Source: Tetradesmus obliquus (lineage: Eukaryota; Chlorophyta; Chlorophyceae; Sphaeropleales; Scenedesmaceae). Taken from it: 64,000 nt of DNA. The notes beneath the pieces are model-generated. The model searched no databases. It saw only the letters and a program-made list of their open reading frames with translations, and was not told where the DNA came from. The position numbers were made by a program, and so were the translations under genes. Positions 1 to 64,000 of the stretch are shown here, piece by piece (position 1 is the stretch's first letter; every line of letters starts with the position of its first letter). The stretch covers positions 2,418,001 to 2,482,000 of the forward strand of contig CP126207.1 in the NCBI GenBank assembly GCA_030272155.1. The letters are read 5' to 3'.

Positions 1-285
1 ACTGAGGCACAAGCAAGCCATCACAAGCCAACACTAGCACCAAACAACCGACAGGCAATGCAAACAAAGCGTGCCAACACAAACAATCCCGAAACAAGCA
101 CAGAGCCACACCAACCAGGGACATGCAGATGCAGCACAGCGGTGGCAACAATCCGCACTCCACATGAGCCAGTAACCAAGCACCACTCAAAACAGCAGAA
201 ACGCGAACAAACACCCAACAGTGTTTCACTGCGAGTGTGCTGGCTATAGGCAAGCACCGAGCATGGCATGTGTTACTCAGGGTTC

Positions 286-341
286 TGCAACCACAGAGCA
301 GTGCACAGCAACAGCAGAGCGCTGCAAATCACAGACTACAT
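286..341. repeat. 56-bp direct repeat, left copy
   Basis: This 56-bp segment is repeated without mismatch at 758-813 in the same orientation. The two copies bracket the integrase-tail-like reading frame, and the right copy supplies the first residues of that frame. It could be a duplication made when the element inserted or recombined, or an echo of element sequence. It is too long for an ordinary target-site duplication. Confidence 0.85.
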
Positions 342-399
342 TATGTAGCACTGGATTTGTTACCACCGCTGCGAGCATGTAAGCTGCAGCCCTCCAAAC

Positions 400-59625: not shown

Positions 59626-60746
59626 ATCTCCTCCGCATTATGTTGCATTGTGCTTGTGCTTGTGCTTGTGATGAATGCAATCGGCAACTTTCTTTATATC
59701 TCCTTCTTCTCTAGGATTGGGGCAGATTTATTTGATAACACTCCAAGAATATGACAGCAAAGGGCCTGGACTCAACTCACAGATTGCTATCTTGGGTAAC
59801 GGCAAACTTAGGACTTCTTGTTCGGGCTCAGCTGTGACTGTGATGTGATCATTGTGTGATCATGATGTGATCATGATGTGATCATGATGTGATCATTGTG
59901 TGCTTTGTGCACTGTCACATACCAGTCGGCTTGCACACGATTGTTCACATCCACACAAAAAAATTACTGCCCTATGCATGCATGCAGCTGATGTGGAATG
60001 CATGCTTACATGGTTATTCGTCGTTTTATACCGTTGACATTTCAGCGTTCCTGCGCTGATAGCAGCACCTGAACCCTTCCACGCTGCACAGCTGCAACAT
60101 TTGTTGTATTGATGCAACATATGTTGCTGCCAACGCTCAATCCAGCAAAATGTGTAGAAATATTTTCCGGGGATGTGAGCATAGCGAGCCATACTTGGTC
60201 ACATCACCTGATCACGTGATCATGATGTACTCCTGCCAGGAATCCTCCTGCCAGGCTGGGGGGCGGGTGCAGCTGTACGCTGACTCAACCGTCCGGGTTA
60301 CACGCTGACCAAGCGCCACGACACCATAACATTCCGATAACCTGAATGTAACGCCCTTTAATTGTTTTTGAGCGCAGCAATTGCAGGCTGTAGCCCAGTT
60401 TCAGCCAGCCCTCATGCTCGCATACGACAAGCAACATCGTCTACGAAGCCTTTCGGCTGCTGATGCACAGCCACAAAATATTTTCAATTCAAATAGAGTT
60501 CGTTTATTTGTCTTATGGCCGTCCTTCACCTGCTACAGACAGTGCGATAGCACCGAAGTATGAAGAGCTCTTCATTGAACATGATTAAAGGCGGTGTAAC
60601 GATATGTTACGAACTTTTAACCGTTACTGAATCGAGCTGAACGCCCTGTGACTTGATCCTGACAGCAGCAAGGACACAGCTTGCCGGAACTTGGCTTGCA
60701 GAAGAGCGAGCAGCAGCGTCCGCGGCTGTACGTAATTTCGCCAGTA
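59626..60746. other. Intergenic, GT61 3' flank and Cys-rich gene promoter
   Basis: No gene is visible. It contains a short tandem repeat of ATGATGTGATC (59845-59898) rich in TGATCA palindromes, and a TGATCACGTGATCATGAT palindromic word at 60207-60224. A TGTAA lies at 60347. The segment 60408-60460 resembles 56690-56740. Confidence 0.55.
59845..59898. repeat. TGATCATGATG tandem repeat
   Basis: Four to five units of 11-12 bp. TGATCA palindromes overlap the unit edges. Confidence 0.85.
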
Positions 60747-63700
60747 ATGCTGATGCTTCATATAATGCAGCCCTTAGTGGTCTTGAGCTTGCTGCTTGGG
60801 GGAGACGTTGGCCTGCTGGCTACAGCACAGCAGCCTGTGGATGCTCAAGTTGGTCACCAGAAGCTGGGAGCAAGTACAGCCCACAAAGCGGCTGCTGCTG
60901 AGAGCAAGGTACTCAGAGTTTCAAGCCGCATATGCTTCGGGTTCGCCTGAACGTCAGTGCACTCCTCAAATTTGAGCATTTAAATGCTGCCACCTGCAGG
61001 AATCTGCAGCTCACTGCTCCGCCATTGCTGCTGCTGCTGCCACCGCTGCCACTACTGCATAAGGTCAGCATCAGCAGCACCAACCTAGCCCTGCAATACC
61101 TCGGCTGGCTTGGAGGCGGCCACATCTACTACCTTGGCATAATCTGTTAGATGCTGCTGGCCCCCAGCAGCTTGCACACCCACACTGTCATCTTGCTGCT
61201 GCTGCTGCCGCTGCCTGCATCAGGTTGTAAACAGTGCTACAACCAACCCAGACCTGCACTACCCCGGTTGGTACGGAGGCGGTATCTATTACCGGGGCAT
61301 GCTGCGCTGCAAGCAAGAGATCTGCAGCCCCAACTGGAGAACCATTTGCATTGGACATGCATCTGGCTGCCGCAACAAGCACTGCAGATGGGTTAATGCC
61401 CCAAATGGGGCCGTGTGTGATGTCGGCCGTTGCATTCAGGGCTTGTGCTGGCAGGGTTTGTGCGTTGGAGGTGGACCTGCCACTTGTCCAGCACACCCTG
61501 AGCAATGCATGCAGGTGGGTTCTACTGTACCAATGAGCAGTTTCTGCTGCTGCTGCTGTTGTGGTAACATGTCCAGCACACACTGAGCAGTGCATGCAGG
61601 TGAGGTGGCTGCGTCTGCCTGGGATGATTGGATGAGCCATGATGTGTAAACTACATACTAGGTGTTGCTGCGTTCTGGTTCGGTGGATTGAGTTTTGTTT
61701 GGGGTGAGCACCAAGGCCCAACTGCACACTGACAGCACCCATTACTGCTGCACTGCTGCACTGCTGCTGCTGCTGCTGCTGCAGTACAAATGCAACCCCC
61801 GCACCGGCCTCTGCACTGAGACCTGGCCAAAGCCTGACGGTTCACCCTGCAAGGGCGGCAGCTGCAAATCTGGAAAGTGCGTGCCGGATGCAACCGCATG
61901 CCCGCCAGACCCCAACAAATGCAGTAGGTACCAGTTCAACAATGCAACAGCAAAGTGTGAGCTGGAGGTCACCAGCTGCCCTCAGCAACCCCCAGATGCC
62001 TGCAAGATGGTGAGCAACCCAGCTGAATCCAATCTGCTGCTGCTGCTGCTGCTGCTGCTGCTGCTGCTGCTGCTGCTGCTGCTGCTGCTGCTGCTGCTGC
62101 TGCTGCTGCTGCTGCTGCTGCTACTGCTGCTGACACAAATCACATATCCTTCTACAACTTGTGTTGAACAGGCCACCCTGCTCTAGCCTATGTTGTGCTG
62201 AATCGATCGCGGGATCAACAGGCCTGCACAGATGCCTGATAGCCTGACAGCACTGCTGTTGCTTCACCAGTGCAGCTGTGCCTTCTAAATCAACAGCGAC
62301 ATGAGCATGCATGCATGCACCTCTGCAGCTGTCATGGATGCTTCGACTCGTCATCATGCTGTGTGCTTGCTGCTGCTGCTGCTGCTGCTGCTGCTGCATT
62401 GCTTGCTGCTGCAGCTGAGGTGCAAGAAGACCACGGGGCTGTGCACAGCACTCTGGAACAGGCCTGATGGCACAACATGTGAGTTGGCTGGTGTGGGTTG
62501 CAGCCCAAGGTCAGCACACTTACCAATGGCTGCTACAACAACTGCATGCCTGTACATGTTCGACCCTAACAGGCCTGATGGCGCACAATGCGAGCACTGC
62601 TGTGGCTGCGGTGGCTTTTTGAGCATGCGCAATGGCTGATGCTTCTGAAGGCCCTGGCGGCACCTGCCAGCTTGGTCGCAGCTTTGAGATCTCTTTGAGA
62701 TCTCTCTAGAGAGGACAGTTACATGTGGGTCCTGGCCCATATGCTCCGCAGGTGAGAGCCTCAACAGGTTGAACACATGGTCTGAGGCCAGACAAGGAGA
62801 ATGAGCACCTGAGCTGTGGTAGCGGGTGGCTGCCACCACATTTTTCGACCTTCCACTTCCACTGATCATCACATTTTCCTGTTACCTGCTGGTGCTTGCT
62901 GCAGGCCCTGGCGGCACCTGCAAGGGTGGCAGCTGCAGCAATTCAGCTGCCTGCCCCCCAATATTTTCGAAGCCGCCACTCCAACTGCTCATGTCACCTT
63001 TTTGGCACTGCCTGTGCTGGCTGCAGGCCCTGGCGGCAGCTGCAAGGGAGGCGCCTGCAGCACAAACTCAACTGCCATCTGCCCCGTACCGTGCAGGAAC
63101 CATACGGGTGAGCCAAGATGTATGCATCATGTTTGCTGCTGTGAATGAGGAGGGGTTGCATGTGGCACAATGCTTACGGTGCACGCCACAACATGATGAG
63201 CGCATAGCATGAAACTAGATACCCTGTAGACAATGAGCTTTGTTACCAGTCGCTCATTAGGACAATATTGCATCAAGTTGTACAATGCAAGTATAATGCA
63301 CTAGAGGCGAGCACACTTGCCGGAGTCTCAACACCATATTTTGTCACCATCAAGCCATAGCAACAGCGCCATGTTTGCCTTGGTGCAGACGACTGCAAGC
63401 AGTGGAAGTGCAACCCAAGCAGTGGCGCTTGCGACATCGAAGGGAACAGGTGAGCGATGCAATCCAAAGTGATACGTCTCCATCAGCAGGCACTACGTCA
63501 CAGTCTAGAGTCTAGACTGTACACGTCACGTAACAGTTACAGTGGGCAACAAACCTATAGCTCAGCTGGTAAATGCTGCTACAGCTGGCTCATGAGTCAA
63601 TCGCCCCACATGCTGCTGCAGCAAAGGATAGGTTTCCTTGTGGCGTTGAACAAAACTCCATTCAGTATGCTGAAGCTGCTGCTGCTGTTGTTGCTGCTAT

Positions 63701-64000
63701 GCTATTTTGCCTGTCTGTGCAGGCCTGACAACACATCATGTGAGCAAGACACAGACAGATGTGCCATAGCTAGCCACTACACAGCTGCACAGTCTGCACC
63801 AAATATGACACACAGCTGCACAGTCTGCACCAAATATGCCCTGTCCGTCTACATCATGTGAGCCACACAGGATTGCGCTGCAGCACGCTGAGATTCACCT
63901 GCCAACAATGTGACCATTGTATATAGGTCAAAATTTGTAGCAGTCGTCATCTTGTTACCCATCCAGCCATAACACCAACGCCATCGGCCCCAGGTCAATC
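60747..64000 (+). CDS. Secreted Cys-rich multimodule protein (runs off window)
   Basis: Exons so far: 60747-60908, 61224-61514, 61785-62009, 62415-62478, 63027-63107, 63389-63449 and 63723-63739, all in frame (about 300 aa) with the next exon outside the window. The ATG starts a signal peptide (MLMLHIMQPLVVLSLLLGG). Exon 2 has YPGWYGGGIYYRG and CRWVNAPNGAVCDVGRC. Later exons form a recurring pattern split by introns: KCNPRTGLC, then KPDGSPCKGGSCKSGKC; KKTTGLCTALWNRPDGTTC joined to PGGSCKGGACS; WKCNPSSGAC then NRPDNTSC. This CNPxTGxC...DGTxC...GGxC layout parallels the Cys modules of the VWA gene at the other end of the window. An extracellular role is likely; the function is unknown. Confidence 0.75.
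61060..61150 (+). repeat. Decayed echo of Cys-rich exon 2 start
   Basis: SISSTNLALQYLGWLGGGHIYYLG matches VVNSATTNPDLHYPGWYGGGIYYRG of the real exon 2 (61224). The copy ends in TAG and its acceptor is AAG. It lies 161 bp upstream. Confidence 0.85.
61560..61608 (+). repeat. Echo of Cys-rich exon 2 end plus donor
   Basis: TGTCCAGCACACACTGAGCA, GTGCATGCAG and GTGAGG repeat the exon 2 end (61485-61514). Confidence 0.85.
62035..62132 (+). repeat. CTG tract, about 31 units
   Basis: Almost pure CTG run (one CTA) in the intron after 62009. Unlike most, it sits 30 bp past a donor and 280 bp before the next acceptor. Confidence 0.92.
62570..62970 (+). repeat. Echoes of Cys-rich exons 4 and 5
   Basis: NRPDGAQC at 62570 copies the end of exon 4. 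GPGGTC-type starts at 62647 and 62905 copy the start of exon 5 (63027) after AAG and GCAG respectively; the 62905 copy reads PGGTCKGGSCSNSAACPP and is intact enough to be an alternative exon, but I see no donor. Confidence 0.8.
63723..63739 (+). other. 17-nt microexon of Cys-rich gene
   Basis: Between CTGTGCAG and GTGAGC lie 17 bases in phases 2 and 1, encoding (R)PDNTS(C). The same PDGTTC ending is fused to the preceding segment in exon 4. The phase fit supports it, but the downstream exon is outside the window. Confidence 0.55.
63760..63840. repeat. 28-30 bp direct tandem repeat
   Basis: CACAGCTGCACAGTCTGCAC followed by CAAATATG occurs twice in a row (63780-63808 and 63810-63838). Confidence 0.85.

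Follow-up and report, generated by a model that had tools for sequence, protein, structure and literature searches.

Introns of neighboring genes in the green alga Tetradesmus obliquus contain repeated partial copies of the exons that flank them, splice junction included. How do such copies arise, and why do so many of them still read as protein? The question is raised by a 64,000-nucleotide (nt) stretch of contig CP126207.1 (C17:2418001-2482000; hereafter, the window) of the 104.66-Mb, 17-contig assembly GCA_030272155.1; for the species, the available text of an earlier report gives 57% GC, 108 Mb, a mean intron length of 462 bp, and 7.8 introns per gene (PMC5966456). We use the term echo for a copy of an exon start with its AG, or of an exon end with its GT, located in the neighboring intron. 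The original prediction, made from the letters of the window, had claimed such copies for at least seven of its eight protein-coding genes, and codon-level alignment to the parent exons in four genes (LctP, PP2C, MFS, and lectin) established that the copies in these are real. It had also described the copies as running from near identical to decayed. That account was incomplete, for although some copies have decayed, many keep their protein sequence: they diverge as coding sequence does, mainly by synonymous substitution, and the AG or GT is mostly retained.

The evidence comes from a pool of 52 echoes, drawn from six genes and, in 51 cases, covering one or more full codons. Nearly all were placed by similarity, and they were aligned to the parent exon without gaps from the junction inward. 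Omitted from the pool were the units of a 45-bp LctP array except the last, copies of the last LctP exon, units of a Cys-rich gene, a second lectin-like copy near 19.4 kb, three regions of other stretches that lack a gene model (L043, L046, and L048 at 4.4 to 5.7 kb), echoes of an LctP paralogue on contig C14, and two PP2C candidates in which similarity starts inside the exon. Between echo and parent, 259.3 synonymous (S) differences over 796.0 sites and 123.7 nonsynonymous (N) differences over 2207.0 sites were counted, a synonymous fraction of 0.68. A simulation of neutral echoes, in which the exon evolved with an omega of 0.05 for an equal time, gave 0.41 (standard deviation, 0.03), with a maximum of 0.46 in 30 runs. 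For the first 33 echoes, the observed fraction was 0.70, and simulations with the echo omega set at 0.25 and at 0.1 produced 0.67 and 0.78, respectively. Taken by gene, the fraction was 0.69 in LctP, 0.82 in MutS2, 0.62 in the ABC transporter, and 0.67 in MFS, each above 60 of 60 neutral runs; PP2C reached 0.57, with 1 of 60 neutral runs as high, and lectin 0.53, with 14 of 60 as high, which is compatible with neutrality. Four echoes carried 4 to 10 S differences and no N difference. The splice dinucleotide was kept in 49 of the 52 echoes (AG in 36 of 37 start-side copies and GT in 13 of 15 end-side copies), compared to the approximately 66% expected if they were neutral.

A similar signal was obtained from an annotation-free scan that covered the window and 20 stretches of 10 kb outside it, chosen by us at round coordinates on 15 of the 17 contigs. 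Each local repeat pair received a score for its runs of synonymous differences, with 20 shuffles that preserved the base-wise differences as the reference. At a score of at least 7, the window yielded 32 of 207 pairs (expected, 1.85) and the sample 12 of 253 (expected, 0.35), although these are not counts of pure echoes: those of the window include protein repeats and whole-exon copies, 9 of the 12 sample pairs lie in L048, and L037 probably represents a protein repeat.

The simplest account, that echoes are dead products of ordinary tandem duplication on which nothing acts after birth, is therefore very doubtful. It finds support in copies that are clearly decayed, namely, the LctP exon 7 copies at 42373 and 42867 and the MutS2 copies at L048 positions 952 and 1291, and in the lectin echoes, which fit neutrality, as the PP2C echoes nearly do. 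None of the 30 neutral runs, however, reached the pooled fraction, and both the retention of AG and GT and individual echoes with 10 S and no N or 8 S and no N differences argue against decay. Detection by similarity favors conserved copies, yet it would hardly yield an echo with 10 S and no N differences.

The richest collection of echoes belongs to the LctP (lactate permease) gene (38805..52132, + strand; PF02652). Its exon boundaries were set by the annotated protein A0A383VQV1_TETOB (UniRef; P0013; 1167 residues), which we take to be from strain UTEX 393 and which contains one copy per exon and no echo sequence. Some edges of the parent exons are approximate: E3 (40037-40298), E5 (40826-40931), E6 (41189-41350), E7 (41699-41911), E10 (46296-46549), E11 (48158-48366), E12 (48828-48926), and E13 (51972-52132). 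Aligned echoes exist for E3, E7, E10, E11, E12, and the last exon, and their layout is regular: copies upstream of the parent comprise the exon start with AG, and copies downstream comprise the exon end with GT. All LctP echoes are on the + strand. E3 has a start echo with AG at 39735..39847 (S 9, N 1) and an end echo with GT at 40461..40553 (S 8, N 0). For E7, the predicted six copies are all end-side (42025..43006; first intron bases at 42142, 42373, 42516, 42727, 42867, and 43007), four of which retain GT, and a start echo with AG was found in addition (41451..41568; S 16.5, N 3.5). An E10-end echo with GT lies at 46679..46795 (S 6, N 4). The 18 copies proposed for E11 were likewise recovered, as AGGC[AG]C acceptor copies 5' of the parent (46868..48110); 13 of them fall in the 45-bp array (47220-47810) and its last unit. 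E12 is accompanied by two start echoes with AG (48555..48727) and by two end echoes with GT located 2.3 to 2.5 kb downstream (51229..51462). Three copies of E13, two of them with in-frame stops, follow the gene at 52233..52874 and stand outside the pooled counts.

Two further observations concern the changes within these copies. A count of private changes in the E11 echoes (N 11, S 7) was near neutral, but such a count disfavors synonymous sites and did not enter the analysis. Serine codons switch between TCN and AGY among the E11 echo copies and among the ABC echo copies, which is unusual for recent neutral copies.

Echoes also appear to be old. The E10-end echo of the window reads RDEM, as does the E10 exon of P0013, while the window's own E10 exon reads RGEM. 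A metagenome sequence, P0007, carries a frame-shifted E10-end copy that also reads RDEM in a hand-decoded translation, and its parent E10 exon is itself divergent (86% identity over the aligned part). An echo common to the window and P0007 suggests that echoes probably predate the separation of strains and species.

In the PP2C gene (OEZ86_007274; 22653..30208, - strand; PF00481), to which the T. obliquus protein P0031 maps, copies had been proposed for exons 4, 6, 7, and 9; three exons have aligned echoes. One echo derives from the start of the SLGDL exon (24099..24176; S 9, N 7), two derive from the start of the GDSRAV exon (24655..24858), and three derive from the start of the AFGG exon (22874..23175), one of which has lost its AG. 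In the MFS gene (+ strand), the six copies stated for exon 4 were recovered as acceptor-side copies of the start of that exon (the IVAWLG exon; 33500..34133; parent at 34232), and a later exon adds two copies of the RLLFGY exon start (36124..36368; parent at 36447). The five copies claimed for lectin exon 2 were also found (15591..16080, + strand), the parent being assumed at 16133, where no annotated protein is available.

Not every repeat in the window is an echo. The Cys-rich gene (3139..9340, - strand) contains tandem whole exon-plus-intron units of approximately 380 to 417 bp, which we read as ordinary exon duplication. An in-frame unit of 85 codons is duplicated in a lectin-like protein (14607-14830 and 14862-15085; scored run, S 23.5 and N 5.5); this is a protein repeat within one open frame, and no Pfam match was found for the 399-amino-acid frame. 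Positions 15285-18988 and 19102-22217 form a larger tandem duplication, with collinear repeat pairs approximately 3.3 to 3.8 kb apart that are 71 to 93% identical.

The same arrangement is found elsewhere in the genome, as had been proposed. In two of the 20 sampled stretches, echoes were worked out in detail, in one within a MutS2 gene (L048) and in the other within an ABC transporter gene (L042). Two MutS2 exons match positions 439-485 and 487-549 of one NCBIfam model; they are separated by a 1,380-bp intron in which five copies of the exon end are followed by two copies of the exon start. The ABC gene has five exon-start copies upstream of the parent. On C14, the ends of two exons of an LctP paralogue (LEVLPAALDG... 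and VAGLLGALSS...; L010, L012, and L023) are present in additional copies that show few residue changes, whereas each occurs once in P0002 (OEZ86_008455, T. obliquus); this protein matches the paralogue with mismatches only near exon edges when parent-exon segments are compared. Together with the mapping of P0031 (OEZ86_007274) to the PP2C gene of the window, this match makes it very likely that the assembly is that of T. obliquus OEZ86. In an aldehyde dehydrogenase gene, C14:3352351-3352461 and 3352663-3352878 match the profile from positions 143 and 144, likely a further echo. An assembly artefact was rejected as the source, given these other LctP, MutS2, and ABC loci and the metagenome sequences P0004 and P0007, which carry frame-shifted E7 and E10 echoes (hand-decoded).

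How are the copies born? Local repeats were defined as at least 45 bp long and within 3 kb of each other, with microsatellites masked. Across the window and the 20 stretches, 495 were direct and 5 inverted, with a spread of identities, so the predicted direct orientation, local placement, and mixture of ages stand. The window contributed 208 direct and no inverted repeats, and the stretches contributed 287 and 5, with at least one direct repeat in 17 of 20. Local repeats cover 30% of the window and 0 to 74% of the sampled stretches, the window being richer than most. The genome is thus rich in direct-orientation local tandem duplications.

The claims that the copied piece favors the junction and that CTG-rich splice sites seed the copying fared less well. 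Exon ends fully inside a local repeat numbered 7 of 24 in LctP, against 8.6 under circular shifts, and 4 of 18 in PP2C, against 3.4, which is no enrichment in either gene (coordinates partly approximate). CTG-family trinucleotides showed no clear excess at repeat ends (0.256 ± 0.004) over random positions (0.246 ± 0.004). Neither junction targeting nor CTG-seeded slippage is therefore supported. As a separate matter, 18-base CTG repeats are numerous genome-wide, with 137,421 matches in the forward and 134,639 in the reverse direction when overlaps are counted, against 1 and 6 for the reversed pattern. Since direct repeats are abundant and neither exon ends nor CTG are clearly favored, the simplest origin would be unspecific local tandem duplication filtered by what the gene tolerates. 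In the two genes tested, exon ends are caught in passing by general local duplication and are not preferred sites. What survives of the proposed cause is ongoing local tandem copying, which is seen also in other parts of the genome and in metagenome contigs of relatives. Conversion by paralogues was discarded as a source: the two other LctP loci are 38 to 69% identical to the window protein, the window echo hits are 61 to 95% identical, and the paralogues look too distant.

Duplication by itself leaves the codon conservation to be explained. Alternative splicing would do so directly if echoes served as alternative exon parts under protein-level selection, and the retention of codon sense and of splice dinucleotides, together with the MutS2 intron, where five donor-side echoes precede two acceptor-side echoes between exons that are adjacent in the protein, is consistent with this. 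Candidate second splice sites also occur in some copies, such as an AG preceding the similarity in the MutS2 copies ending at L048 830 and 952 and G/GTGCGT after the ABC copy at 687. Arrays of dual-specific splice sites are described as splicing tandem repeats in UBC in the available text of PMC10809524. By simple motifs, however, second sites are not enriched relative to random positions: 8 of 34 start-side echoes had a donor-like GTRNG close to their inner end, against a random frequency of 0.22, and 6 of 13 end-side echoes had YAG, against 0.55. Echoes as a class thus appear to lack the acceptor-plus-donor pair of a cassette exon, although single copies do have both. Only 7 of 39 units have a length that is a multiple of three, against 13 expected, so that read-through into the exon would be mostly out of frame. 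No echo sequence was found in the annotated proteins P0013 and P0031, and these and the PP2C protein P0034 of a relative, which has a transcriptome-style name, contain one copy per exon. Chance-level second sites, non-triplet units, and annotated proteins without echoes do not favor expression as exons, and we consider this explanation unlikely.

We favor, at a probability of roughly 0.4, a combination of local tandem duplication with exchange between echo and exon that exposes echoes to selection at the protein level. Where duplication takes in an exon end, those copies that are not attached to the complete exon remain in the intron as echoes; the gene would tolerate them because splicing would use the site of the complete exon. 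Array contraction, unequal exchange, or conversion could then keep echo and exon interchangeable by fusing the junction-side part of the echo to the remainder of the exon. A damaged echo would produce a broken exon after such an exchange and would be removed by selection even though the echo itself is unspliced. This model predicts that nonsynonymous changes lie farther from the junction, as was seen overall and for start-side echoes (P = 0.0002 each).

Several points weigh against the exchange reading. The distance gradient depends on E11 and ABC (P = 0.068 without them); it gave a P value of 0.12 for end-side echoes, was not significant in PP2C, lectin, or MutS2, and had the expected sign in 10 of 16 families. 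The pool is biased, since MutS2 and ABC entered it because the codon scan flagged them; LctP, PP2C, MFS, and lectin came from the list of the original prediction, and among these, PP2C and lectin give the weaker signals. Retention of AG and GT is somewhat overstated, as 3 of the 52 echoes (L048 258, 1369, and 1291) were found by eye or with a pattern containing AG/GT and the two PP2C candidates without a junction were dropped. No contraction events were observed. By a rough estimate, such second-order selection needs either very high diversity or a population of very large size.

Diversity bears on another explanation, in which copies are born with synonymous differences because they were captured by unequal exchange among cryptic species or among alleles that had diverged strongly. 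Proteins named T. obliquus (P0001, P0002, P0014, P0031, and P0032) differ pairwise by 3.2 to 5.5% (3.2 to 4.3% for one LctP paralogue and 5.5% for PP2C), which suggests cryptic species or high diversity; the window LctP differs from P0013 by only 1.9%. In the metagenome relative P0004, the flanking intron is nearly identical and the E7 echo is very different (hand-decoded codons), and echoes of the window carry exon residues of another strain (D in E10 and L in E13). Several MutS2 echoes, however, differ at 0.55 to 0.70 of synonymous sites, which looks above the divergence of strain proteins, and the intron parts of the arrays are alike, pointing to divergence in place. Capture from divergent lineages is thus rather unlikely.

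How do echoes relate to known systems? Introner elements are dispersed insertions unrelated to neighboring exons, whereas echoes match the adjacent exon and are direct and local, a distinction that the original prediction had also drawn. Mutually exclusive exons, which arise by tandem exon duplication, are complete exon copies with two splice sites each; echoes resemble them as protein-conserved coding copies beside the parent but carry one splice site, the second occurring at chance level. The statement that nothing of this kind had been described was too strong, as tandem duplication across an intron-exon boundary, producing a new intron, has been reported in potato (PMC4974935). Echoes are likewise direct adjacent copies that cover intron and exon. 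In both cases an intron end and exon start are duplicated in tandem and the copy inherits splice signals; as far as the accessible part of that report describes it, the potato case was a single event whose copy is in mRNA with a new intron, whereas echoes are many per gene, apparently intronic, and codon conserved. A review (PMC3443670) covers tandem genomic duplication in which the copied segment of an exon contains AGGT. That process is also direct and local and gives additional splice sites, but the segment lies inside an exon and makes a new intron, whereas echoes straddle existing junctions. The UBC arrays are similar as coding-unit arrays with repeated splice signals, and the ABC exon copies begin AG/GTAYGG; the units of UBC enter mRNA in variable number (PMC10809524), whereas in several families of echoes the junction has no AGGT. 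AG/GT stands at the unit junction in all six ABC copies (parent included) and in the E12 parent but not in E3, E7, E11, or the first MutS2 exon. In Chlamydomonas and Volvox, tandem repeats are described as densest in introns and denser near intron-exon junctions (PMC3887541, available text); both these and echoes occur near intron ends in green algae, but the reported repeats are short motifs rather than pieces of exons.

A search of titles and abstract openings, which left subscription literature mostly uncovered, yielded no description of partial exon copies that lie in introns and conserve their codons. Cross-junction tandem duplication is already known, and the apparent new aspect is the presence of many codon-conserved intronic partial copies per gene. 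It is conceivable, although doubtful, that introns form a genome-wide reserve in which spare exon halves, competent for splicing and conserved in their codons, stand in arrays and are kept by selection because they are regularly brought into the working exon by recombination or splicing; intron sequence would then be subject to selection at the protein level. If codon conservation in echoes is confirmed, they would also offer a natural system in which to measure how often exon and intron sequence is duplicated in tandem, a process from which new introns have been proposed to arise. They would further bear on intron growth, exon turnover, and gene prediction in algae, and introns could carry selected protein-coding information outside mRNA.

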